The translations under genes were made by a program, and so were the position numbers. From positions 1-34,396 of the forward strand of contig JANWZN010000015.1 of NCBI GenBank assembly GCA_025054575.1: a stretch of 34,396 nt of DNA. Direction: 5' to 3'. Positions 14,147-34,396 of this stretch are shown here, in pieces (position 1 is the first letter of the stretch; the number at the start of each line of letters is the position of its first letter). Below the pieces are notes generated by a model. It was not told where the DNA came from. It saw only the letters and a program-made list of their open reading frames with translations, and ran no database searches. Source of the DNA: Geminicoccaceae bacterium (GTDB lineage Bacteria > Pseudomonadota > Alphaproteobacteria > Geminicoccales > Geminicoccaceae).

Positions 14147-16327
14147 ATGCGGAGCGAAGCCCTCAACCTGCTCGATCGGTTGACCGACCTTTCGGGCGAG
14201 CCCGGGACGGTCGCGCGGCCGGAGGGCGGGCGGCGGTTCGAGCTGGTCTCCGACTACCGGCCGGCGGGCGACCAGCCGCAGGCGATCGACGAACTGGTCG
14301 CCGGGCTCGAGCGCGGCGAGCGCGACCAGGTCCTGCTGGGCGTGACCGGCTCGGGCAAGACCTTCACCATGGCCAACGTCATCGCTCGGATGCAGCGGCC
14401 GACGCTGATCCTGGCACCGAACAAGATCCTCGCCGCCCAGCTCTACGGGGAGATGAAGAGCTTCTTTCCGAACAACGCCGTAGAGTATTTCGTCAGCTAT
14501 TACGACTATTACCAGCCCGAGGCCTACGTCCCGCGCACCGATCTCTACATCGAGAAGACCTCGAGCATCAACGAGCAGATCGACCGCATGCGCCACAGCG
14601 CCACCCGCGCGCTGTTCGAGCGCGACGACGTCATCATCGTCGCCTCGGTCTCCTGCATCTACGGTATCGGTTCGCCGGAGGTCTACGCCCGCATGACCTT
14701 GACCTTGCGTGAAGGCCAACGGGTCGAGCGTCAGCAGCTCCTGCGGGCGCTGGTCGAGCTGCAATATCGTCGCAACGATCACGATTTCTCGCGCGGCACC
14801 TTCCGCGCCAAGGGTGACGTGATCGAGATCTTCCCGGCCCATCTCGAGGATCGCGCCTGGCGGATCACCCTCTTCGGCGATCGGATCGAGCGCATCGTCG
14901 AGGTCGATCCCTTGACCGGCGAGCGCACGGCCAAGCTCGAGATGGTCCGCCTCTATCCCAACAGCCACTACGTCACGCCGCGGCCGACGCTCCAGCAGGC
15001 GGTGGAAGCGATCAAGAAGGAACTCAGCGAGCGGCTCGCCGAGTTCCGCAGCCAGGGCAAGCTCTTGGAGGCCGAGCGGCTGGAGCAGCGGACCAATGCC
15101 GATCTCGAGATGATCTTGACGACCGGCTCGTGCCCCGGCATCGAGAATTATTCGCGCTACTTGACCGGCCGTAAACCCGGCGAGCCGCCGCCCACCCTGT
15201 TCGAGTATCTCCCCGACAACGCGATCCTGGTGGTCGACGAGAGCCACGTCACCGTGCCGCAGGTGGGCGGCATGTTCCGCGGCGACTGGCACCGCAAGTC
15301 GACGCTCGCCGAGTACGGCTTCCGGCTGCCCTCCTGCTGCGACAACCGCCCGCTCAAATTCGAGGAATGGGACGCGATGCGGCCGCAGACGATCTTCGTC
15401 TCGGCGACCCCGGGCCCGTTCGAACTCGGCCGGACGGGCGGCGTGTTCGTCGAACAGGTGATCCGGCCGACCGGGCTCGTCGACCCCGAATGCATCGTTC
15501 GCCCGGTCGAGCACCAGGTCGACGATCTGTTGGCCGAGTGCCGGACCGCGCGCGAAAAAGGTTATCGCGTGCTGGTCACCACGCTCACCAAGCGCATGGC
15601 CGAGGACCTCTCGGAATATCTCCACGAGCAGGGCGTGCGCGTGCGCTACATGCACTCGGACATCGACACGCTCGAGCGCATCGAGATCGTCCGCGATCTT
15701 CGCCTCGGCAAGTTCGACGTGCTGGTCGGCATCAACCTCTTGCGCGAGGGCCTCGACATCCCCGAATGCGGCCTCGTCGCCATTCTCGATGCCGACAAGG
15801 AGGGCTATCTCCGCTCCGAGACCTCGCTCGTCCAGACGATCGGCCGCGCCGCGCGCAACGCCGAGGGCCGCGTCATCCTCTACGCCGACACCATGACGCG
15901 CTCGCTCGAGGCCGCGATCCGCGAGACCAACCGCCGACGCGCCAAGCAGATCGCCTGGAACGAGGCGCACGGCATCACCCCGCAGTCGGTCAAGAAGCAC
16001 ATCAACGACATCCTGGGCTCGGTCGCCGAGCGCGACTACCTCACCGTCGAGCTCGGGCCGGACGCGCCCAAAACCCTGGTCGGCAAGGATCTCGCCGCCT
16101 ACCTGGCCGAGCTCGAGCGGAAGATGCGCGAGGCCGCGGCCGATCTCGAGTTCGAGGAGGCGGCCCGGCTGCGCGACGAGATCCGTCGGCTGGAGCAGAG
16201 CGAACTCGGCTTGCCGACCCCGACCACCACCCCGCTGCCGCCGCAGAAGCGCAACATCCGCGAGGAAAAGCGGCAGAAGGCGGAGGCGGCGCGGCGCGCC
16301 CGCGCCCGCCGTCGCACCGGCGCATGA
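14147..16327 (+). CDS. uvrB: Excinuclease ABC subunit B
   Basis: A 726-residue UvrB, the damage-verifying helicase-like subunit of nucleotide excision repair. Walker A is GVTGSGKT (residues 65-72). The DNA-gripping beta-hairpin contains [16 protein letters not shown]-like box DESH and helicase motif VI (QTIGRAARN) are intact. The C-terminal UVR motif that binds UvrC spans about 653-680 ([20 protein letters not shown]). The protein is some 50 residues longer than E. coli UvrB, because of an N-terminal leader and a basic Lys/Arg/Ala-rich tail after the UVR motif. The ATG at 14147 has GAGGAG nine bases upstream (14132-14137). The stop overlaps the start of a thioesterase gene by four bases (ATGA). 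I saw no alphaproteobacterial SOS box (GTTC-N7-GTTC) immediately upstream. Confidence 0.98.
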
Positions 16328-17851: not shown

Positions 17852-19639
17852 TCAGGCGGCGGCGTAGAGCCGCTCGAGCACCGCCCCGTGCCGTTCGACG
17901 ATACGCGACCGGCGCAATTTGAGGGTCGGTGTCATGAGGCCGTTTTCGACCGTGAAGCGCTCGGCCAAGAGCTCGACCCGGCGGATCCGCTCGAGCGAGG
18001 AGAGCTTGGCGTTGGCGCGCGCGACCGCCGCCTCGACCGCGCGGCGGAGCTCCGGATCGGCGACCAGCTCCTGGCTGCCCGGTGGCCGCCCGGCGCGCGC
18101 GGCCGCGGCCTCGAGGAGCTCTTCGGAGGGAACGACGAGGGCCACGAGATGCGGACGACGATCGCCGTAGACCAGGACCTGGCCGATCTCGGGCTCGAGC
18201 GCGAGGATGCCCTCGATCTTCTGCGGTGCGACATTGTCGCCGCCCGAGAGCACGATGATGTCCTTCTTTCGATCGGTGATCGTGAGAAAGCCGTCGGCGT
18301 CGATCGTGCCGATGTCGCCCGTGTGCAGCCAGCCGTCGCGCAAGGCTGCCGCGGTCGCCTCCGGATCCTTGTAATAGCCTTTCATGACGAGCTTGCCGCG
18401 GACCAGGATCTCGCCGTCCTCGGCGATCGCGACCTCGACGCCGTCCAAGGGCGGACCGACCGTCTCGACCTTGTTGCGCCGCGGCCGGTTGGCGCTGATC
18501 ACCGGGCTCGCCTCGGTCTGGCCGTAGCCCTGGAGGAGCGGCACGCCCAGCGCCAGAAAGAAGCGGCCGACCTCCGGGCTCAAGGGCGCCCCGCCCGACA
18601 CCATGGCCTTGAGCCGGCCGCCGAAGCGGGCCCGCACCTGCGCCCGCACGAGCCGGTCGAGCACGAGGTCGACCGCCGCCCGCAAGGGATCGAGCCGGCC
18701 GCCGCGCTCGAGCCGCCGCAGGCCGTTGGCGAGTGCGAGGTGGAACAGCTTCGCTTTGATCCCGCCCTGCCGCTCGACGCTCGCGAGGATGCGCTGGCGC
18801 AGCACCTCGAGCAGGCGCGGCACGCAGGTGAAGATCGTCGGCCGCGCCTCCACGAGATCGTGCGACAGCCGCTCGACACCGTCGGCGTACCAGATCTGCG
18901 CGCCCATCGCGATCGGCAGGAACTGGCCGACGGTGTGCTCGTAGGCGTGACTGAGCGGCAGGAACGACAAGAACAGGTCGTCACCGATGCCGACCTCCTC
19001 GAGCAGACCCCAGGCACCTTCGAGGTTGGCCATGATGCTCTCGTGCGTGAGCATCACGGCCTTGGGTCGGCCGCCCGTGCCGGAAGTGTAGATGAAACAG
19101 GCGAGATCGCCCCCTTCCGCCCGCTCGCCCGGCAGCTCGCCGCCGGCCGCGCGATCAAAGGCGAGCGCGTCGGACCAAGCGAGGAGCGGGGTTTGGGCGG
19201 GAAGCTCGGGTGGCCGGTCGAGCGCCACGACCAGCCGCAAGGGCGGCAGGCGCGCGAGCGCGGCCGCGAGCCGGTCGGGAATCGTGCCGCCGCCCACGAC
19301 GACCGCGACCGCTTCGCTGTGGGCGAGGACGTAAGCGAGGTCCTCGGCGGTCCAGGTGGTGTAGGCCGGGACGGTGACCGCACCGGCGGCCAGGCAGGCG
19401 AGGTCGGCCGCACACCATTCCGGCCGGTTCTCGGCGACGATCGCGACGCGATCGCCCGGTCGCACCCCGTGGGCGAGCAAGCAGGCCGCCAGAGCGCGGG
19501 CCTGCGCGTCGATCTCGCCCCAGGACCGGCTGCGCACGACACCCCGCTCGCGGCGATGGAGGAACGGCCGGTCGCCACCGCGGCGTGCGGCGCGCGCGAA
19601 CATCGCCCAGAGATTGGCGCCGAGATCGGGTGCCGCCAC
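17852..19639 (-). CDS. fadD: Long-chain acyl-CoA synthetase (AMP-forming)
   Basis: A 595-residue ANL-superfamily ligase that activates a fatty acid to acyl-AMP and then acyl-CoA. The P-loop is YTSGTGGRPK (184-193). Later motifs are GYGQTEASP (A5-like), DGWLHTGDIG (A7/A8), and the C-terminal subdomain with NGLMTPTLKLRR carrying the adenylation lysine. The length and the insert around the ALANGLRRLERGG region fit the bacterial FadD15/long-chain type rather than E. coli FadD. The GTG at 19639 is chosen because GGAGGA lies six bases upstream (19646-19651); longer frames add unlikely Arg-rich sequence. It diverges from pepF across 89 bp containing an AT island, GCATATATGAA (19691-19701), that may serve as a promoter element. 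Chain-length preference cannot be read. Confidence 0.9.
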   Translation of the reverse strand: MAAPDLGANLWAMFARAARRGGDRPFLHRRERGVVRSRSWGEIDAQARALAACLLAHGVRPGDRVAIVAENRPEWCAADLACLAAGAVTVPAYTTWTAEDLAYVLAHSEAVAVVVGGGTIPDRLAAALARLPPLRLVVALDRPPELPAQTPLLAWSDALAFDRAAGGELPGERAEGGDLACFIYTSGTGGRPKAVMLTHESIMANLEGAWGLLEEVGIGDDLFLSFLPLSHAYEHTVGQFLPIAMGAQIWYADGVERLSHDLVEARPTIFTCVPRLLEVLRQRILASVERQGGIKAKLFHLALANGLRRLERGGRLDPLRAAVDLVLDRLVRAQVRARFGGRLKAMVSGGAPLSPEVGRFFLALGVPLLQGYGQTEASPVISANRPRRNKVETVGPPLDGVEVAIAEDGEILVRGKLVMKGYYKDPEATAAALRDGWLHTGDIGTIDADGFLTITDRKKDIIVLSGGDNVAPQKIEGILALEPEIGQVLVYGDRRPHLVALVVPSEELLEAAAARAGRPPGSQELVADPELRRAVEAAVARANAKLSSLERIRRVELLAERFTVENGLMTPTLKLRRSRIVERHGAVLERLYAAA

Positions 19640-21557: not shown

Positions 21558-22910
21558 ATGGCGACCCCCAAGACCCGCAACGAGAACACGCTCGGCGGCC
21601 GGATGCGTCGCTACGCCCAGGTCGGCGGCACGGTCGCCGGCCAAGCGGCCAAGCTCGCGGGCGCCAGGCTCGTGGGCGGGTTCGACCGCACGAGCCACGC
21701 AGCCGAGCTCAAGGCCGCGCTCGGCGGGCTCAAGGGCCCGCTCATGAAGGTCGCCCAGATGATGGCGACCATCCCCGACGCGCTGCCCGCGGAGTACGCG
21801 GCCGAACTGGCGCAACTGCAAGCGAACGCGCCGCCCATGGGCAAGCCGTTCGTGCGACGCCGCATGGCGGCCGAACTCGGGCCCGACTGGCCGCGCTATT
21901 TCGCCGAGTTCCCGCTCGAAGCCGCAGCCGCCGCCTCGCTCGGCCAGGTCCACCGCGCCCGCCTCCACGACGGCCGGATCGTCGCCTGCAAGCTGCAATA
22001 TCCCGACATCGAATCCGCGGTCGAGGCCGACTTGGCCCAGCTCGGCGTGATCTTGTCGATCTGGCGGCGGTTCGACAGCGCGATCGACACGAGCCGGATC
22101 TACGAAGAGATCTCGGCACGGCTCCGCGAGGAGCTCGACTACGCGCTCGAGGCCAAGCACATGCGGCTCTACCGCCACATGCTCGCGGGCGAGCCTCGGG
22201 TGCACGTCCCCGAGCCCGTACCGGAGCTCTCGACCCGTCGGCTGTTGACCATGAGCTGGCTCGAGGGCCGCCCGCTCATGAGCTATCGCGACGCCGATCA
22301 GGAGACCCGCAACGAGCTCGCGCTCGCGATGTTCCGCGCCTGGTACGTGCCGTTCTACGAGCACGGCGTGATCCACGGCGATCCGCATCTCGGCAACTAC
22401 ACGGTACGGCCCGATCTCTCGATCAACCTCTTGGATTTCGGCTGCGTGCGGATCTTTCCGCCGAGCTTCGTCCAAGGCGTGATCGACCTCTATTGGGCGC
22501 TCGTCCGCAACGATCGCGAGCTCGCCGTCCACGCTTACGAAAGCTGGGGCTTCAGCGGCCTGACCCACGAGCTGATCGACGTGCTCAACGAATGGGCGGC
22601 CTTCCTCTACGGCCCGCTCATGGAGAACCGGACCCGCAAGATCAACGAGACCAACAGCGGCGAGGCGGGCCGCAGGGTGGTCGAGCGGGTCCACCGGCGC
22701 TTGCGCGAGGTCGGTGGGGTCACCATCCCCCGCGAGTTCGTCTTCATGGATCGCGCCGCGATCGGGTTGGGCTCGGTGTTCCTCCACCTCGCCGCCGAGA
22801 TCAACTGGTACGAGCTCTTCATGAGCCTGGTCGAGGATTTCGACGTCGCAGCCGTGGCCGCCCGCCAGGCCCGCGCCCTCGAGGTCGCGGGGCTCGCGGG
22901 CCGCGCCTGA
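21558..22910 (+). CDS. ABC1/AarF/UbiB-family atypical kinase
   Basis: A 450-residue member of the UbiB/ADCK family of atypical kinase-like ATPases, which support ubiquinone or other lipid metabolism. Visible motifs are the N-terminal K-x-x-Q segment (LMKVAQMMA, with Ala where the canonical motif has Gly), the Ala-rich nucleotide loop AAAAASLGQVHRA, the conserved lysine in VACKLQYP, the catalytic loop GVIHGDPHLGNY and the metal motif DFGC. The Ala variant is usual in an alphaproteobacterial sub-clade I recall. It lacks the C-terminal membrane helices of E. coli UbiB. The ATG at 21558 has GGGTGA about eight bases upstream; the in-frame GTG at 21546 would overlap the pepF stop. It is co-directional with pepF. 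Confidence 0.9.
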   Translation: MATPKTRNENTLGGRMRRYAQVGGTVAGQAAKLAGARLVGGFDRTSHAAELKAALGGLKGPLMKVAQMMATIPDALPAEYAAELAQLQANAPPMGKPFVRRRMAAELGPDWPRYFAEFPLEAAAAASLGQVHRARLHDGRIVACKLQYPDIESAVEADLAQLGVILSIWRRFDSAIDTSRIYEEISARLREELDYALEAKHMRLYRHMLAGEPRVHVPEPVPELSTRRLLTMSWLEGRPLMSYRDADQETRNELALAMFRAWYVPFYEHGVIHGDPHLGNYTVRPDLSINLLDFGCVRIFPPSFVQGVIDLYWALVRNDRELAVHAYESWGFSGLTHELIDVLNEWAAFLYGPLMENRTRKINETNSGEAGRRVVERVHRRLREVGGVTIPREFVFMDRAAIGLGSVFLHLAAEINWYELFMSLVEDFDVAAVAARQARALEVAGLAGRA

Positions 22911-22926
22911 GCGGGCGCGCGCAGCG

Positions 22927-22942
22927 CGAGCCGGCCGGCTCG
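22927..22942. repeat. Perfect 16 bp GC palindrome between convergent genes
   Basis: CGAGCCGGCCGGCTCG is perfectly symmetric and lies midway in the 44 bp between the converging kinase gene and pxpA. It could end transcripts from both sides, but there is no T-tract on either strand. It shares the GCCGGCCGGC core with the palindrome at 4225-4240. Confidence 0.45.
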
Positions 22943-22954
22943 GGCGACCGACTC

Positions 22955-23731
22955 TCAGCCCAGCCGTTCGACGAACGGTCGGATCGCGACGTTCGCCCGC
23001 TCGAGCGCCGCCCGGATCGCGCGCGCCATGGCGACCGCAGCGGGATTGTCGCCGTGCACGCAGATCGTGTCGATCCGCGCCGGGATCTTCTTGCCCGACT
23101 GGCTCGTGATCGCCTGCTCCTCGAGCATGCGCAGGATCCGGCGGGCGGCCTCCTCGGCATCGTGCAGCACCGCCCCGGGCAGCTTGCGCGAGACCAGCAT
23201 GCCGCGATCGTCGTAGGCGCGATCGGCGAAGACCTCGCGCGCGACCCGCAAGCCCTTGCGCTCGCCCGCCCGCTCGAGGGCACTTCCCGGCATCGCCACG
23301 AGCACGAGCTCGCGCCCGCACAGCGCGGTCGCCTCGGCCACCGCGAGGGCGAGCCCGTCGTCCTCGGCTGCCATGTTGCCGAGCGAGCCGTGCGGCTTGA
23401 CGTGGGTGACACGATGCCCGACCGCCGCCGCCACCGCCTGCAGCGCCCCGATCTGGTAGACGCACTGGCGCATGATGTCCTGCGGCCGCTCGCCCTGGAT
23501 CGGCCGTCGCCCGAAGCCCCAGAGGTCGAGGAAGGAGGGATGCGCGCCGACCGCCACCCCGTTGGCCTTGGCGAGCCGGCAGGTCTCCCACATCACGAGC
23601 GGATCGCCGGCATGGAAGCCGCAAGCGACGTTGGCCGAGCTCACGATGCCGAGCATCGCCTCGTCCTCGCCCATCTTCCAGGCACCGAAGCTCTCGCCGA
23701 GATCGCTGTTGAGATCGACCGTCGTCTGCAT
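22955..23731 (-). CDS. pxpA: 5-oxoprolinase (ATP-hydrolysing) subunit A
   Basis: A 258-residue LamB/YcsF-family protein. With PxpB and PxpC it opens 5-oxoproline (pyroglutamate) to glutamate at the cost of ATP, removing a toxic by-product of glutamine and peptide breakdown. Family landmarks are the N-terminal DLNSDLGESFG, the VACGFHAGDP loop, VAVGAHPSFLD, HVKPHGSL and ICVHGDNP near the C-terminus. The length is normal. The ATG at 23731 is the natural family start. Unlike the common pxpBCA or pxpBAC order, it is on the opposite strand, and it diverges from pxpBC with 104 bp between starts, so one control region may serve both directions. Confidence 0.95.
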   Translation of the reverse strand: MQTTVDLNSDLGESFGAWKMGEDEAMLGIVSSANVACGFHAGDPLVMWETCRLAKANGVAVGAHPSFLDLWGFGRRPIQGERPQDIMRQCVYQIGALQAVAAAVGHRVTHVKPHGSLGNMAAEDDGLALAVAEATALCGRELVLVAMPGSALERAGERKGLRVAREVFADRAYDDRGMLVSRKLPGAVLHDAEEAARRILRMLEEQAITSQSGKKIPARIDTICVHGDNPAAVAMARAIRAALERANVAIRPFVERLG

Positions 23732-23835
23732 CGCGCCGCTCCCCGTCCGCTGCCGCGGCGAGCCTAGACCCTCTCGCCCGCGCGGCAACAGCGGGCGAGG
23801 CTGACGACCGGCGCGGGCCGCGCTAGCTCTCTTCC

Positions 23836-24576
23836 ATGAGCGAGAGCCTGCGCGAGCCCTTCCGACCGCGGATCGTCCCGGTCGGCGATGGCGCGATCCT
23901 GATCGAGCTCGGCGAGACCATCGACCCCGCGATCAACGCTTTGGTGCTGGCGCTCGACGCGCGTATCCGGGCGATGGCGCTCGAGGGCGTGGTCGAGCTC
24001 GTGCCCACCTACCGCTCGCTGCTCGTCCACTACGATCCCGAGCGGGTCGATGGCCGGGCCCTGCTCGCGCGCCTTTCGTCCCTCGATCTCGACCATCCCG
24101 GCAGCCCGCCCGAGGGCCGGCTCTGGACCGTGCCTGTCGCCTATGGCGGCCCGTTCGGGATCGATCTCGAGGCGGTCGCCGCCCGCCACGGTCTGAGTGC
24201 GGAGGACGTGGTCCGGCTGCACACGGCCCCGACCTACCGGGTCTACATGGTGGGCTTCGTTCCGGGCTTCACCTATCTGGGCGGGCTGGATCCGCGGCTG
24301 CACACCCCCCGTCTCGACGATCCGCGGCCGCGCACACCCGCCGGCAGCGTCTCGATCGGCGGCATCCAGGCCGGCATCGCCTCGCTCGAGATCCCCTCGG
24401 GCTGGCATCTGCTCGGCCGCACGCCGGTGCGCACCTTCGACCCGGAGCGCACGCCCCCCTTGCTTCTCGAGCCGGGCGACCGCGTCCGCTTCGTGCCGAT
24501 CGATCCGGCGACCTTCGCCGAGCTCGACCGCCGAGCTGCCGCGCACGACCCGCTGATCGCCCCGGAGCCCGCGTGA
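23836..24576 (+). CDS. pxpB: 5-oxoprolinase subunit B (KipI-like)
   Basis: A 246-residue PxpB/KipI-family protein, the cyclophilin-like subunit that pairs with PxpC. The conserved block GFVPGFTYLGGLDPRLHTPR is followed by RTPAGSVSIGGIQAGI and PSGWHLLGRTP, all typical. The N-terminal region (about 1-90) is the KipI N-domain. The ATG at 23836 has only a weak upstream site (CTAGCTCTCTTCC); no better in-frame start exists. The stop overlaps the GTG start of pxpC by four bases (GTGA). The original KipI label (sporulation kinase inhibitor) comes from Bacillus; with pxpA and pxpC beside it, the 5-oxoprolinase role is the right reading here. Confidence 0.95.
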   Translation: MSESLREPFRPRIVPVGDGAILIELGETIDPAINALVLALDARIRAMALEGVVELVPTYRSLLVHYDPERVDGRALLARLSSLDLDHPGSPPEGRLWTVPVAYGGPFGIDLEAVAARHGLSAEDVVRLHTAPTYRVYMVGFVPGFTYLGGLDPRLHTPRLDDPRPRTPAGSVSIGGIQAGIASLEIPSGWHLLGRTPVRTFDPERTPPLLLEPGDRVRFVPIDPATFAELDRRAAAHDPLIAPEPA

Positions 24577-29298: not shown

Positions 29299-29486
29299 CC
29301 GCCCTCTCCCCCGAGCCGCCCGAGGGGGCCCGGCCCTCGGGAACGCCGAACCCACCGGAGCCTAGGCTAGTGTCTACAGGTTCTTCCGGGCAAGCCTGCA
29401 AGCGTCGTGGAAGCCAGGAATGGCGGCGAGCCCTTGCCGGGCGTGGGATCGCGGCCACAATGCTCGCTCGACAGTCGAGGTCGGCC

Positions 29487-30569
29487 GTGTCGCGCAAGAT
29501 CGTCCATGTCGACATGGACGCCTTCTACGCCGCGATCGAGCAGCGCGACGATCCGCGGCTGCGCGGGCGGCCGGTCGCGGTCGGCGGCTCGGGACCGCGC
29601 GCGGTCGTCGCGACCGCGAGCTACGAAGCGCGCGCCTTCGGCATCCGCTCGGCCATGCCGATGGCACGAGCGCGCCTGCTGTGTCCCGATCTCGTCGTGG
29701 TGCCGCCGCGCTTCGAGACCTATCGCGCGGAGAGCCGACGCATCCGCGCCATTCTCCGCCGCTGGTCGAGCCTGGTGGAGCCGCTCTCCCTCGACGAAGC
29801 CTATCTCGACGTCACCGAGCCCTTGCCGGGGCCGATGCCCGCGCTCTAGGTGGCCCGCCTCCTCAAGCTCGAGATCCGGGCCGCCACCGGCTTGACCGCC
29901 TCGGCCGGCGTCTCGTGCAACAAGCTCTTGGCCAAGCTCGCATCGGGCCACGCCAAGCCCGACGGGCTCACGCTCGTCCGACCGCAAGAGGCGCGAAACT
30001 TCATGGCAGCACTCCCGGTCGAGGCGATCCACGGCATCGGGCCCAAGAGCGCCGCGCGGTTGCACCGGCTCGGCATCGCCACCGGTGCCGACCTGCAACA
30101 GCGCGATCCGGCCGAACTCGTCGCCACGTTCGGGCGGATCGGGCTTCTCTGGTGGAACCTCGCCCACGGCCGCGACGACCGCCCGGTCGAGCCCGACCGG
30201 CCCCGCCGCTCGCTCGGGATCGAAACGACCTTCGCGCGCGATCTCGTGGGCCCGGCCGCGCTCGAGGCCGCGCTGCGCCCACTCGCCCACGAACTCGATC
30301 GGCGGGCGCATCGGGCAGGCTTCCGCGCCCGCACCCTCGTGCTCAAGATCAAGCACGCCGATTTCCGGCTCGCGACCCGCTCGCTCACGCTCGCCCGGCC
30401 GCCCGAGGGGCCGAGCGAGCTCTTTGCCCTCGCTCGCCGGCTGTTGCACATCCCTGCCCCGCCCGCGGGGCCGGTCCGCCTGCTCGGCCTTTCTTTGTGC
30501 CTGCCGAACCGGGTGGAGGATCCGCGCCAGCTGCCGCTCGAGCTCGCCGAGCCCCGTGATCAGGGGTAG
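29487..30569 (+). pseudogene. dinB: DNA polymerase IV (dinB), split by an in-frame amber codon
   Basis: A full-length Y-family translesion polymerase frame (360 codons, against 351 residues in E. coli) interrupted only by TAG at 29847-29849, codon 121. The first part carries the catalytic acids D9 ([10 protein letters not shown]) and D103-E104 ([10 protein letters not shown]). The second resumes in the same frame with the rest of the palm (LTASAGVSCNKLLAKLASGHAKPDG), the HhH region (IHGIGPKSAARL), the little finger and a clamp-binding-like QLPLEL near the end. There is no frameshift, and codon use stays normal after the stop, so the lesion is recent, a sequencing error, or tolerated. A GTG directly follows the TAG and could restart translation. 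The GTG start at 29487 has GAGG upstream; ATG 29460 is an alternative. The 3' end overlaps the convergent gene by 10 bp. Confidence 0.85.
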
Positions 30570-31307: not shown

Positions 31308-32174
31308 TCACGGCTCCGCCGCCGCCGCGGCGACGAGCGCGCCGATCTCCGGTCGATCGCGCGCCTGCAGCATCTGATAGACGGTGGCCGCGGTCTCTTC
31401 GACCGAACGCTTGGTGACGTCGAGCTCGGGCCAGCCCATCCGGGCATAGAGCCGGCGGGCGGCGACGAGCTCGGCGCGCACCCTCGCGAGATCGGCGTAA
31501 TCGCCACCGTAGCGGCCGAGATCGCCCGCACGAACGCCCAGCATCCGCTGCCGGTTGGCCCGGATCTCGGCCAACAATTCGGGGCTCAGGGTGAGCCCCA
31601 CGACGAGCGGCCGCTTGAGCCGCTCGAGCACCGGATGCGGCGGCACGTCGGGGACGAGCGGCACGTTGCCGGCCTTGATCCCGCGATGCGCGAGATAGAC
31701 ACAGGTCGGCGTCTTCGAGGTCCGCGACGGCCCCACTAGCACGACGTCGGCCTCGTCGAGCTCCTCGGCGAACTGGCCGTCGTCGTGCCGCATCGCGAAG
31801 TTCATGGCCTCGATGCGCGAGAAATAGCCCTCGTCCATCGCGTGTTGACGACCGATCTGCGGCTTGCCGGCCGAACCCAAGAGCTGGGTCAAGGCACTCA
31901 TCACCGGATCGAGCACCGCCACGCACGGGATCCCGAGGCGCTGGCAACGCTCGTGCAGGACGTGGCGGAGCTCGGGCGAAACGAGCGTGTAGAGGACCAC
32001 GCCCGGCAGCGCCTCGATCAGCGGGAGGACCTTCTCGAGCTGCTTGCGCGTGCGGACGAAGAACCAGACGTGCTCGACCGGGCTCACGTCCTCGAACTGC
32101 GAGACCGCCGCCCGCGCCACCGTGGTGACCGTCTCGCCGGTCGAATCGGAGATCAGATGCAAGTGCAGCCGCAC
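31308..32174 (-). CDS. ppsR: Pyruvate,water dikinase (PEP synthase) regulatory protein, DUF299
   Basis: A 288-residue bifunctional kinase/pyrophosphorylase of the PPSR/PDRP family, which switches PEP synthase or pyruvate phosphate dikinase off and on by ADP-dependent phosphorylation. The N-terminus HLHLISDSTGETV, the AMRHDDGQ block (about 127-134), the P-loop GPSRTSKTPT (148-157) and LTLSPELLAEIRANR are all family marks. The GTG at 32174 follows GGGAG six bases upstream. This is the RP001-type gene that borders the chromosomal origin in Caulobacter and Rickettsia; here it faces hemE across 401 bp and is transcribed away from that gap. Family members cannot be split into PpsR and PpdR types by eye, so the exact target enzyme is open. 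Confidence 0.93.
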   Translation of the reverse strand: MRLHLHLISDSTGETVTTVARAAVSQFEDVSPVEHVWFFVRTRKQLEKVLPLIEALPGVVLYTLVSPELRHVLHERCQRLGIPCVAVLDPVMSALTQLLGSAGKPQIGRQHAMDEGYFSRIEAMNFAMRHDDGQFAEELDEADVVLVGPSRTSKTPTCVYLAHRGIKAGNVPLVPDVPPHPVLERLKRPLVVGLTLSPELLAEIRANRQRMLGVRAGDLGRYGGDYADLARVRAELVAARRLYARMGWPELDVTKRSVEETAATVYQMLQARDRPEIGALVAAAAAEP

Positions 32175-32575
32175 GGAGCTCTCCCGGGACGAATGCGGGA
32201 AGAGGCGGGGACGGGCGGCGGATCGGTTCCGCGCCCGCCGCCCCGGCGTTCGGTGCCTGCCGTTGGCCCGCGATCCGTCCACAGCGATCGACGGCCGGGA
32301 CGGTGCCGCCCCGTGGCTTGGGGAACACCGCCCGACGGGCCGATTATCCCCACCATCCCGTCGATGGACAAGTTGTGCCGGACCGGCGATCCGCCAACCC
32401 CTTGGCGAGTTCCGGGGCACCCTTGTCCGCATCGGCCAGGCGTGCCAACGGGATTGCGGAAAGCTCTGGGGATGCTGCGGGAAACCGACCGATCCCCGGC
32501 TTGCGGCCCCTCACCACTGCTCACCACCCTTCGTGAACGAAAAGGACTGAGGTCGGGGAAAGGGAGGCTCGCAGC
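32175..32575. other. Probable chromosomal replication origin (oriC)
   Basis: A 401 bp gap with no gene lies between divergent ppsR (RP001-type) and hemE, the position of oriC in Caulobacter crescentus and Rickettsia. DnaA-box-like 9-mers against TTATCCACA are TTATCCCCA at 32344-32352 (8 of 9), TTGTCCGCA at 32423-32431 (7 of 9), and weaker CCGTCCACA at 32275-32283 and GCATCCCCA (minus strand, 32467-32475), 6 of 9 each. The best box sits in the loop of an inverted repeat, CGACGGG (32333-32339) / CCCGTCG (32357-32363). I saw no CtrA site (TTAA-N7-TTAA) and no strongly AT-rich unwinding element. The call rests mainly on synteny. The gap must also contain promoters for ppsR and hemE. Confidence 0.5.
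32344..32352 (+). promoter_or_regulatory. DnaA-box-like site TTATCCCCA
   Basis: TTATCCCCA matches the consensus DnaA box TTATCCACA at eight of nine bases and is the best match in the ppsR-hemE gap. It lies in the 17-base loop between a 7 bp inverted repeat. One such match could occur by chance; the location makes it worth noting. Confidence 0.4.
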
Positions 32576-33622
32576 GTGGATCGTTCGCACAAACCCTTCC
32601 TCGCCGTGCTCGCGGGCGAGCGACGCGACCCCCCGCCGGTCTGGCTGATGCGCCAGGCCGGGCGCTACCTGCCCGAATATCGCGCGGTCCGCGCCCGCGT
32701 CCGCGATTTCCTCGAGCTCTGCTACACGCCCGAGCTCGCGGTCGAGGTGACCCTCCAGCCGATCCGCCGGTTCGGCTTCGACGCCGCGATCCTGTTCTCC
32801 GACATCCTCGTGGTTCCGCACGCGCTCGGCGCCGAGGTCCGCTTCGCCGAAGGCGAGGGACCGCGGCTCGACCCGATCGCCGATGCGGCGGACCTCGCCC
32901 GGCTCGATTTGGCCCGCCTGCACGAGCGGCTCGAGCCGGTCTACGAGACCCTGCGCCGGCTGGCATCGGCCCTGCCGGAGGAGGTGGCCCTGATCGGCTT
33001 CGCGGGGGCGCCCTGGACGCTCGCCGCTTACCTGGTCGAGGGCCGCGGCTCGAAGGAGTGGCTCGCCCCGCGTACGCTCGCCCGCCGCGAGCCCCGGCTG
33101 TTCGCGAGCCTCGTCGATCTCTTGACCGAGGCCGTGGTCGAGTTCCTCTCGGCCCAGGTCCGGGCCGGTGCGCAGGCCCTGCAGCTGTTCGACAGCTGGG
33201 CCGGGGTGTTGCCCGAGGCCGAGCTCGAGCGCTGGTGCCTGGCTCCCGCCAAGCGGATCGTGGCGGCGCTGCGCGCCCGCCATCCCGAGGTGCCGGTGAT
33301 CCTCTTCCCGCGCGGCGTCGGCGCCCACCTCGCCCGCTTCGCGCGCGAAACCGGTGCGGCCGGGCTGTCGCTCGACACCACCGTGCCGATAGCCTGGGCG
33401 GCCGAGGCGGTCCGCGCGGCGCATCCGCTGGCACTCCAGGGTAACCTCGACCCGGTGGCACTCTTGGGACCGGAGCAGGCACTGCTCGAGGAGGCCCGGC
33501 GGATCCGCGACGCCGCGGCCCTTCGGCCACACATCTTCAATCTCGGCCACGGCGTTTTGCCCCCGACCCCGCCCGAGCGGGTCGCCGCACTCGTCCGCTA
33601 CTTGAAATCCGCTGGCGGATGA
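32576..33622 (+). CDS. hemE: Uroporphyrinogen decarboxylase
   Basis: A 348-residue HemE, which removes four carboxyls from uroporphyrinogen III to give coproporphyrinogen III in haem synthesis. The N-terminal signature LMRQAGRYLPEYR spans residues 24-36 with the substrate arginines. The catalytic aspartate is D76 in AILFSDILVVPHALG. The GFAGAPWTLAAYLVEG and LQLFDSWAGVL blocks and the C-terminal FNLGHGVLP are complete. The GTG at 32576 has GGGAGG eight bases upstream (32562-32567). It is the first gene to the right of the putative origin, reads away from it, and is followed by hemJ after 147 bp, in which I see no feature. Confidence 0.97.
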   Translation: MDRSHKPFLAVLAGERRDPPPVWLMRQAGRYLPEYRAVRARVRDFLELCYTPELAVEVTLQPIRRFGFDAAILFSDILVVPHALGAEVRFAEGEGPRLDPIADAADLARLDLARLHERLEPVYETLRRLASALPEEVALIGFAGAPWTLAAYLVEGRGSKEWLAPRTLARREPRLFASLVDLLTEAVVEFLSAQVRAGAQALQLFDSWAGVLPEAELERWCLAPAKRIVAALRARHPEVPVILFPRGVGAHLARFARETGAAGLSLDTTVPIAWAAEAVRAAHPLALQGNLDPVALLGPEQALLEEARRIRDAAALRPHIFNLGHGVLPPTPPERVAALVRYLKSAGG

Positions 33623-33769
33623 GCGATTTTCGCGCTGTGGGGTCGCGGCGAGCGCATCCCACGCCCGCCTGCTGCCACCGACCCGTACGTTCCGTCGCTG
33701 TGGACGTCCTGGCCGGGCACGCGTCGATTGTGTGCTGGTGGCGACCATCCGACCCGTGATCGTGACGAC

Positions 33770-34201
33770 GTGACCGACGCCCTCCTCTGGCTCAAGGCGC
33801 TGCACATCATGGCCTTCGCCGCCTGGATGGCGGGCATGTGGTACCTGCCGCGGCTCATGGTCTATCACGCCGATCAACCGGTCGGCGCGGCCGCTTCCGA
33901 GACCTTCAAGATCATGGAGCGGCGGCTGTTGAAGGCGATCACCACGCCTGCGATGGTGGTGACCGTGGCCGTGGGCCTCTGGCTCGCCACCGCCCAGGGC
34001 CAGTGGCGCGAGGGTTGGCTGCACGCCAAGCTCCTCTTGATCCTCGCCATGCTCGCCACCCACGGGCTGTTGGCCCGCCACGTCCGCGCCTTCGCCGCCG
34101 ACCGCCGCGACCACTCGACCCGGTATTTCCGCATGCTCAACGAGGTGCCGACGGTGCTGTTCGTGCTCATCGTCCTCCTCGTCGTCTTGAAGCCTTTCTG
34201 A
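33770..34201 (+). CDS. hemJ: Protoporphyrinogen oxidase HemJ
   Basis: A 143-residue inner-membrane protein of the HemJ (UPF0093) family, which oxidises protoporphyrinogen IX to protoporphyrin IX in bacteria lacking HemG and HemY. It has four predicted helices. Conserved residues are H12 in LKALHIMAFAAWMAGMWYLPRL, the following R28 and H33 (LMVYH), and the KAITTPAM turn after helix one. The C-terminal segment NEVPTVLFVLIVLLVVLKPF is typical. The GTG at 33770 gives the family-like start TDALLWLKALH; an upstream GTG (33728) would add 14 hydrophilic residues. The ribosome site is weak. Adjacency to hemE and probable rho is the usual alphaproteobacterial order. Confidence 0.95.
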   Translation: MTDALLWLKALHIMAFAAWMAGMWYLPRLMVYHADQPVGAAASETFKIMERRLLKAITTPAMVVTVAVGLWLATAQGQWREGWLHAKLLLILAMLATHGLLARHVRAFAADRRDHSTRYFRMLNEVPTVLFVLIVLLVVLKPF

Positions 34202-34244: not shown

Positions 34245-34396
34245 TTGGCCGAGAGCGACCCGACCGACGGCAAGCTTCCCCTCGCCGAGCCCGCCGAACC
34301 GGCGGCCGAGACGCCGGCACCCCGCCGCCGGCGCGGCCGGCCGCGTCTCGAGCGGCCGAGCGAGCCCGCTGCCCCGCCGCAGCCGGCGATGGAGCA
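34245..34396 (+). CDS. rho: Probable transcription termination factor Rho, N-terminal start (partial)
   Basis: Fifty codons before the window ends. The TTG at 34245 has GAGGA eight bases upstream (34232-34236). The peptide begins AESDPTDGKLPLAEPAEP, is rich in Ala, Pro and Glu, and contains an AT-hook-like RRRRGRPR. No Rho core motif is inside the window. The assignment rests on position (hemE-hemJ-rho is common in alphaproteobacteria) and on the existence of Rho proteins with disordered basic N-terminal extensions. If it is not rho, it is another protein with a disordered leader. Confidence 0.45.
   Translation, partial: MAESDPTDGKLPLAEPAEPAAETPAPRRRRGRPRLERPSEPAAPPQPAME

Follow-up and report, generated by a model that had tools for sequence, protein, structure and literature searches.

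The closest described counterparts of the locus considered here are the hemE-type replication origins of alphaproteobacteria. In Caulobacter crescentus the origin, Cori, lies at the boundary between hemE and the COG1806/ppsR gene, and the same boundary is given for Rickettsia; predicted origins of this type in Rickettsia and the Anaplasmataceae measure 383-620 bp and carry a variable number of CtrA sites, down to zero (PMC1914354, in its available part). We analyzed a stretch of 34,396 nucleotides of a Geminicoccaceae bacterium (hereafter the window), which is the complete contig JANWZN010000015.1 (C66) of a draft genome (GCA_025054575.1) of 3,546,225 bases in 429 contigs. Its ppsR-hemE intergenic region, 401 bp at positions 32175-32575, had been proposed from the letters alone (below, the sequence-only reading) as a likely chromosomal replication origin. 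The analysis upheld this proposal. Gene order, conservation of the gap and box density mark the region as a putative oriC of the ppsR-hemE type, and we put the probability that it is the chromosomal origin of this bacterium at about 0.92; synteny, gap length, the density of DnaA-box-like sites within the window, the spacing of these sites, the presence of parS nearby in relatives and the turn of the GC skew in a genus-mate all point to this place.

The gene order, likened at the outset to that of the Caulobacter and Rickettsia origins, is that of the hemE-COG1806/ppsR boundary, and both flanking genes are indeed transcribed away from the gap. The ppsR-type gene (RP001/DUF299 kinase-pyrophosphorylase; 31308-32174, minus strand) starts with GTG at 32174 and matches NF003742 (E 1.3e-96); its product is above the cut-off of this subfamily and below that of the PpsR equivalog NF049928. 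On the other side hemE (32576-33622, plus strand; TIGR01464, E 2.8e-118) starts with GTG at 32576. The two boundary genes are homologous to those of relatives and divergent, as in oriC of the ppsR-hemE type, and the gap falls within the range of 200-1000 bp set for the intergenic region in the available text of PMC1914354.

Comparison of the gap among relatives, which had been suggested as a check, showed that order and length are conserved. A divergent ppsR/hemE gap was found in 58 of 65 loci; the seven loci lacking one or both genes (L001, which is the dnaA locus, L027, L031, L060, L062, L063 and L064) were excluded. Merging of duplicates across two collections reduced the 58 loci to 42 distinct gaps of 342-736 bp. 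The five loci closest by PpsR share 84-88% identity with it, and three of them are titled Geminicoccaceae, including the complete AP024683.1 (KatS3mg117; locus L034). The complete one-contig genome of a genus-mate, G005, was taken to be AP024683.1, the hemE gap agreeing in place and being identical in sequence. For comparisons within the family we used 29 gaps, namely 22 with the family label f1 and seven named loci (L037, L038, L043, L047, L048, L051 and L054) added because their PpsR is 60-77% identical; L049 is nearly a copy of L048 and was omitted from these counts. Six of the 29 belong to the genus of the window and 23 to other genera.

The sequence-only reading had counted two DnaA boxes in the gap. 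Both are present, an 8/9 match TTATCCCCA at 32344 and a 7/9 match TTGTCCGCA at 32423. Markov shuffling of the gap (1,000 copies) produced at least one box with a single mismatch at a frequency of 0.006, and at least two boxes with up to two mismatches at 0.019. The count itself proved too low when sites were scored with a DnaA-box model trained on the 23 family gaps from other genera, so that this genus was unseen by the model. Motif fitting used a second-order background, with the site frequency capped, in 15 runs (five seeds by three caps); a fit with a zero-order background had collapsed to pyrimidine tracts and was dropped. Eight of the 15 runs gave a DnaA-like motif, namely all six runs started from the two DnaA-like seeds, plus a single run for each of two enriched-word seeds, and the other seven ended in low-complexity or unclear motifs. 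The model used (seed TTATCCACA, cap 0.01) has a consensus near TTGTCCACAG. It finds nine sites of at least 6 bits in the gap and five of at least 9 bits, as compared with window means of 1.76 and 0.22 per 401 bp. No sliding window attained either number outside the gap surroundings (starts 31701-32700, excluded from the comparison), and the 6-bit count was reached by 0.1% of 2,000 shuffled gap copies. Pieces of the DnaA box were also among the words most enriched over shuffles in the 29 family gaps: TTGTCC was present in 25 (6.2 expected), TGTGGA in 21 (4.6) and TTATCC in 18 (1.8). Single other words could hit 25 gaps in one shuffle, so it is the set of words and not any one of them that counts.

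The top-scoring site of the gap, B1 (TCCGTCCACAG, 32274-32284, plus strand, 12.1 bits), is followed by a minus-strand site at 32318-32328 (9.1 bits) and by B2 (ATTATCCCCAC, 32343-32353, plus strand, 10.8 bits), which contains the 8/9 box. Next come CTTGTCCATCG at 32362-32372 on the minus strand (8.0 bits), B3 (CTTGTCCGCAT, 32422-32432, plus strand, 9.9 bits), which contains the 7/9 box, and a minus-strand site at 32454-32464 (9.6 bits). Weak box-like sites are located at 32530-32541 on both strands (6.3 and 7.7 bits) and at 32553-32563 on the minus strand (6.9 bits). An inverted repeat in the gap had also been claimed. A 7-bp repeat, GGACAAG/CTTGTCC, can be read from the sequence with arms at 32366-32372 and 32422-32428, and its arms are two DnaA-like half sites in opposite orientations; that this is the repeat originally meant is our guess.

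Alignment of the six genus gaps revealed seven invariant runs of at least four bases: GGGA, CCAC, ATTATCC, ATCC, CAAGT, CTTGTCCG and CGTGC. In 10,000 column shuffles the longest run was matched by three and the number of runs by none. Most of these runs coincide with sites named above: CCAC (32279-32282) lies in B1, ATTATCC (32343-32349) in B2 with the invariant ATCC (32355-32358) after it, CAAGT occupies 32369-32373, and CTTGTCCG belongs to B3. The distance between B2 and B3 is also fixed, at 79, 79, 80, 79, 79 and 79 bp in the six genomes; the position of B2 relative to ppsR is nearly constant as well (168-170), so indels are generally rare in that half of the gap. The last run forms part of an element, CGTGC(C/G)AAC (32441-32449), whose start lies 19 bp past that of B3 in all six genomes, with a distance to hemE varying from 133 to 146 bp. 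This element is genus-specific, being found in 6/6 genus gaps and in 0/23 other family gaps; it is not unique to the putative origin, since 800 kb of G005 contain it nine times and the window has two copies.

The sequence-only reading had seen no obvious AT-rich element. This holds in so far as the gap has a GC content of 70%, within the 66-75% per kb of the window. It misses a local peak: the most AT-rich 50 bp (32516-32565) contain 44% AT, a value equalled or exceeded at 2.5% of window positions, and a stability lower than that of the gap's weakest 50 bp (32512-32562) is seen at only 1.3% of window positions. This is the place where the family usually has its AT peak. In 28 of the 29 family gaps, L047 being the exception, the most AT-rich 50 bp start at 72-86% of the gap length, on the hemE side, and the centre of the peak lies at a median of 63 bp from hemE (range 38-185). 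Judged from stability and position, 32512-32562 is the likely unwinding element.

GC skew was analyzed in the complete genome of G005, in which the homologous gap occupies 575,750-576,148. In 40 samples of 20 kb, the cumulative skew declines to 470-490 kb and climbs from 564 kb to a maximum at about 2.27-2.46 Mb; the antipode of the gap is at 2.457 Mb. Continuous skew over 430-678 kb has its minimum at 553,876, about 22 kb from the gap, within a flat basin of about 546-582 kb. A two-arm test on the 40 samples gave p 0.0005 with a best origin at 583 kb, 16 of 20 samples being positive on the right arm and 13 of 20 negative on the left. A skew minimum elsewhere on the chromosome had been named beforehand as evidence that would speak against an origin in the gap; in the genus-mate G005, to which this check was applied, the minimum was found around the gap, in a broad basin. 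The composition of G005 varies along the chromosome: a stretch of some 120 kb (G005:C1, about 558-678 kb) that surrounds the gap and extends past it on the ppsR side has 63-69% GC vs mostly 69-75% elsewhere. Its first 20 kb (L066, G005:C1:1-20000) have 52% GC vs 66-75% in the other 39 samples and are perhaps a foreign island or a ribosomal RNA region.

Sites resembling parS (up to one mismatch) were detected in 16 of 18 genomes. Where parS and hemE share a contig, they are about 7 to 128 kb apart (11/11 genomes); in the other five parS-bearing genomes, including this one, the two are on separate contigs. In this genome (L136, G000:C155; contig coordinates) parS sites lie at 18933 and 21786, next to parAB (22382-24153), and ctrA (14615-15370) is separated from both by about 4-9 kb. 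A match to an OmpR-type regulator, not typed as CtrA, is present about 5 kb from parS in G002, G004 and G005.

These distances bear on the possibility that the gap does no more than house the promoters of the divergent genes ppsR and hemE, where DnaA would act as a transcription factor, and that replication starts at another place, such as the vicinity of parAB or dnaA. In favour of it, parS is about 73-83 kb from hemE in G002 and G005, the two genus genomes with both on one contig, vs 7-29 kb in most sister genera. The cumulative skew of G005 nevertheless keeps declining past parS (497 and 502 kb), a minor local increase at 490-498 kb excepted, and the turn comes only in the basin around the hemE gap. 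The dnaA locus was rejected as an origin, no box of 8 bits being present between dnaA and the preceding gene, which we take to be rpsT. The conservation of the gap in place and length also argues against a promoter function alone, and we regard this explanation as very unlikely.

What can be said for a purely regulatory role of DnaA comes from a second place, since a DnaA-box cluster is also present upstream of nrdJ, the gene for a vitamin B12-dependent ribonucleotide reductase, so that a cluster by itself does not make an origin. Upstream of nrdJ, DnaA-box-like sites were found in all ten Geminicoccaceae examined (L180:2305-2434 on C188 in this genome, L178:2067-2450, and also L179 and L181-L187), with a best score per locus of 12.6-16.3 bits. 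In nine of the ten the best site outscores all boxes in the six genus origins, where the highest value is 12.8. Judging by these scores, the nrdJ boxes suggest either control by DnaA of deoxynucleoside triphosphate (dNTP) supply or a sink for DnaA. A second origin at this cluster was considered and rejected, as it lies at 2.17 Mb in G005, near the skew maximum. Among the literature matches listed for DnaA box and nrdJ, one, a Cupriavidus genome paper, contains both terms. Further site-rich stretches of G005 were noticed at about 0.3, 610 and 670 kb.

Several results weigh against an origin in the ppsR-hemE gap. When 988 kb of G005 were scanned at 7 bits, the homologous gap, with seven sites, was tied with the regions at 670 kb and 2.17 Mb; a threshold of 8 bits left it with five sites (a tie) and the nrdJ upstream region with six; at 9 bits it was outside the best 14 entries. 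The skew of the genome under study is unreadable because the assembly is a draft in 429 contigs, and skew was taken from relatives. In G005 the support is broad, with origins from 395 to 752 kb fitting within 10% of the best. It is weak in G022 (40 samples; p 0.008 at the gap, 0.089 for the scan) and not significant in G008 (20 samples; p 0.197 and 0.783), and the attempt to locate the skew sharply in these two genomes failed. The candidate unwinding element is GC-rich, and none of the six genus gaps has a box of 13 bits or more, though neither do 11 of the 23 other family gaps. The last two features could be explained if an ancestral origin had decayed in this genus, its unwinding element drifting towards GC and its strong boxes lost, and initiation had moved elsewhere; the AT peak is indeed lower here than in the other five genus gaps (50-66%). 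Against such decay, the box runs and their spacing are invariant in six genomes amid divergence, which suggests selection, and the skew of G005 still turns at the gap. We consider decay extremely unlikely, the least probable of the explanations weighed here.

With the gap read as the origin, initiation might proceed as follows. DnaA would assemble cooperatively on an array of GC-tolerant boxes of low affinity (consensus about TTGTCCACAG), which keep a fixed spacing in the middle of the gap. From there the DnaA oligomer would extend toward the weakest duplex (32512-32562, next to hemE), which it would open before loading DnaB, and forks would depart both ways, with ppsR and hemE co-directional with them. 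CtrA would probably not act directly at this origin.

The absence of a CtrA site, noted in the first reading, was confirmed: TTAA-N7-TTAA with up to two mismatches has no match in this gap (0.1 in shuffles), and none in any of the six genus gaps (0.1-0.4 in shuffles). At the same threshold, 10 of the 29 family gaps carry at least one site, among them L017 and L037, which have sites with one mismatch; counts relative to shuffles were 9 vs 2.5 in L011, 5 vs 0.6 in L017 and 4 vs 0.6 in L037. Perfect CtrA sites are present in L026 and L055, two of the 12 ppsR-hemE gaps from alphaproteobacteria outside Geminicoccaceae. According to the available part of PMC4468827, CtrA sites were unseen in origins outside Caulobacter, except possibly in Rickettsia prowazekii; on that account their absence here is ordinary. 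One loose consensus for IHF had no match in this gap and matched in one of the 29 family gaps; the IHF alpha gene is present in 6/6 genus genomes. The genus gaps show no enrichment of GANTC, with 0-1 sites each, below shuffles.

The regulators themselves are partly in place. CtrA (NF045991, 380 bits vs a cut-off of 350) and SciP (NF051866, 130 bits vs 100) are both encoded here, and SciP was found in 19 of 20 Geminicoccaceae. GcrA was found in none of 20 Geminicoccaceae, drafts being liable to miss genes, and above cut-off in four of five other alphaproteobacteria; in control genomes the GcrA model matched Caulobacter and, oddly, Sulfolobus. A search for N6_N4 methylase yielded no strong CcrM-like match in 12 Geminicoccaceae, with the same reservation about drafts: six had none and six had weak matches, partial or of odd length (best 2.0e-21), as compared with CcrM-like matches of about 1e-67 in the outgroups G032 and G037. 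The methylation half of the cell-cycle circuit thus seems to be missing in Geminicoccaceae. Such absence has parallels, since ctrA, gcrA and ccrM are reported in 72-82% of the Rhodospirillales genomes examined in PMC8116508 (available part); the available part of PMC2877005 contains nothing specific to Geminicoccaceae. Hda-like matches above cut-off were obtained in five of six genus genomes with a model that missed the Caulobacter control and is a poor test. The suggestion that control may differ from the Caulobacter model is borne out at the sequence level by the lack of CtrA sites in the six genus gaps, of GcrA and of a strong CcrM-like match. A bolder proposal is speculative and, in our view, improbable as a whole: that the genus times replication without origin CtrA sites, GcrA or CcrM methylation, using only weak DnaA boxes and a GC-rich opening element, with CGTGC(C/G)AAC as a new element of fixed spacing bound by a regulator, and with stronger boxes at the nrdJ promoter competing for DnaA and tying dNTP supply to initiation.

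Beyond hemE the window contains hemJ (33728-34201, plus strand; TIGR00701, E 7.4e-44), whose true start may be further in, since the model match begins at residue 19, and then the first codons of rho (34245-34396, plus strand), cut by the contig end and identified from its resemblance to the homologue in L034, which is Rho. On the ppsR side dinB and tolC are located. The dinB frame (DNA polymerase IV) is open over 29376-30569 except for an in-frame TAG at 29847-29849, which reflects either a broken gene or a draft error. Frames resembling tolC, dinB, ppsR, hemE, hemJ and rho, as judged by eye, occur in the same order in Arboricoccus pini (L044). In AP024683.1 rho is the second gene after hemE, and no dinB-like frame adjoins ppsR.

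The analysis places a very probable origin in a little-studied family, and the family box consensus can help to orient Geminicoccaceae assemblies. It also describes a natural example of an alphaproteobacterium in which CtrA and SciP are retained, with no GcrA, no strong CcrM-like match and no CtrA sites at its putative origin. No paper naming the family was among the matches listed in a search of open-access literature for Geminicoccaceae origins. The ppsR-hemE type of origin was known already, and an origin free of CtrA sites was to be expected from the literature. What is unusual is modest: all boxes are weak, the opening element is GC-rich, and one element is specific to the genus. Rickettsia and the Anaplasmataceae are obligate intracellular bacteria with AT-rich genomes, and unlike theirs the putative origin here is 70% GC, with an opening element that is barely AT-rich. 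The flanking genes are the same as those of Cori (PMC1914354, available part). Cori likewise relies on weak DnaA boxes (G- and W-boxes), with higher-affinity boxes at some promoters than at the origin, and has five CtrA sites, according to the available part of PMC4468827; here there are none, nor a match to the IHF consensus, and, unlike Caulobacter, Geminicoccaceae lack GcrA (0/20) and a strong CcrM-like match (0/12) in the genomes searched. Compared with other alphaproteobacterial origins without CtrA sites, the locus does not differ in kind; what it adds is a box consensus for the family and the genus-specific element.
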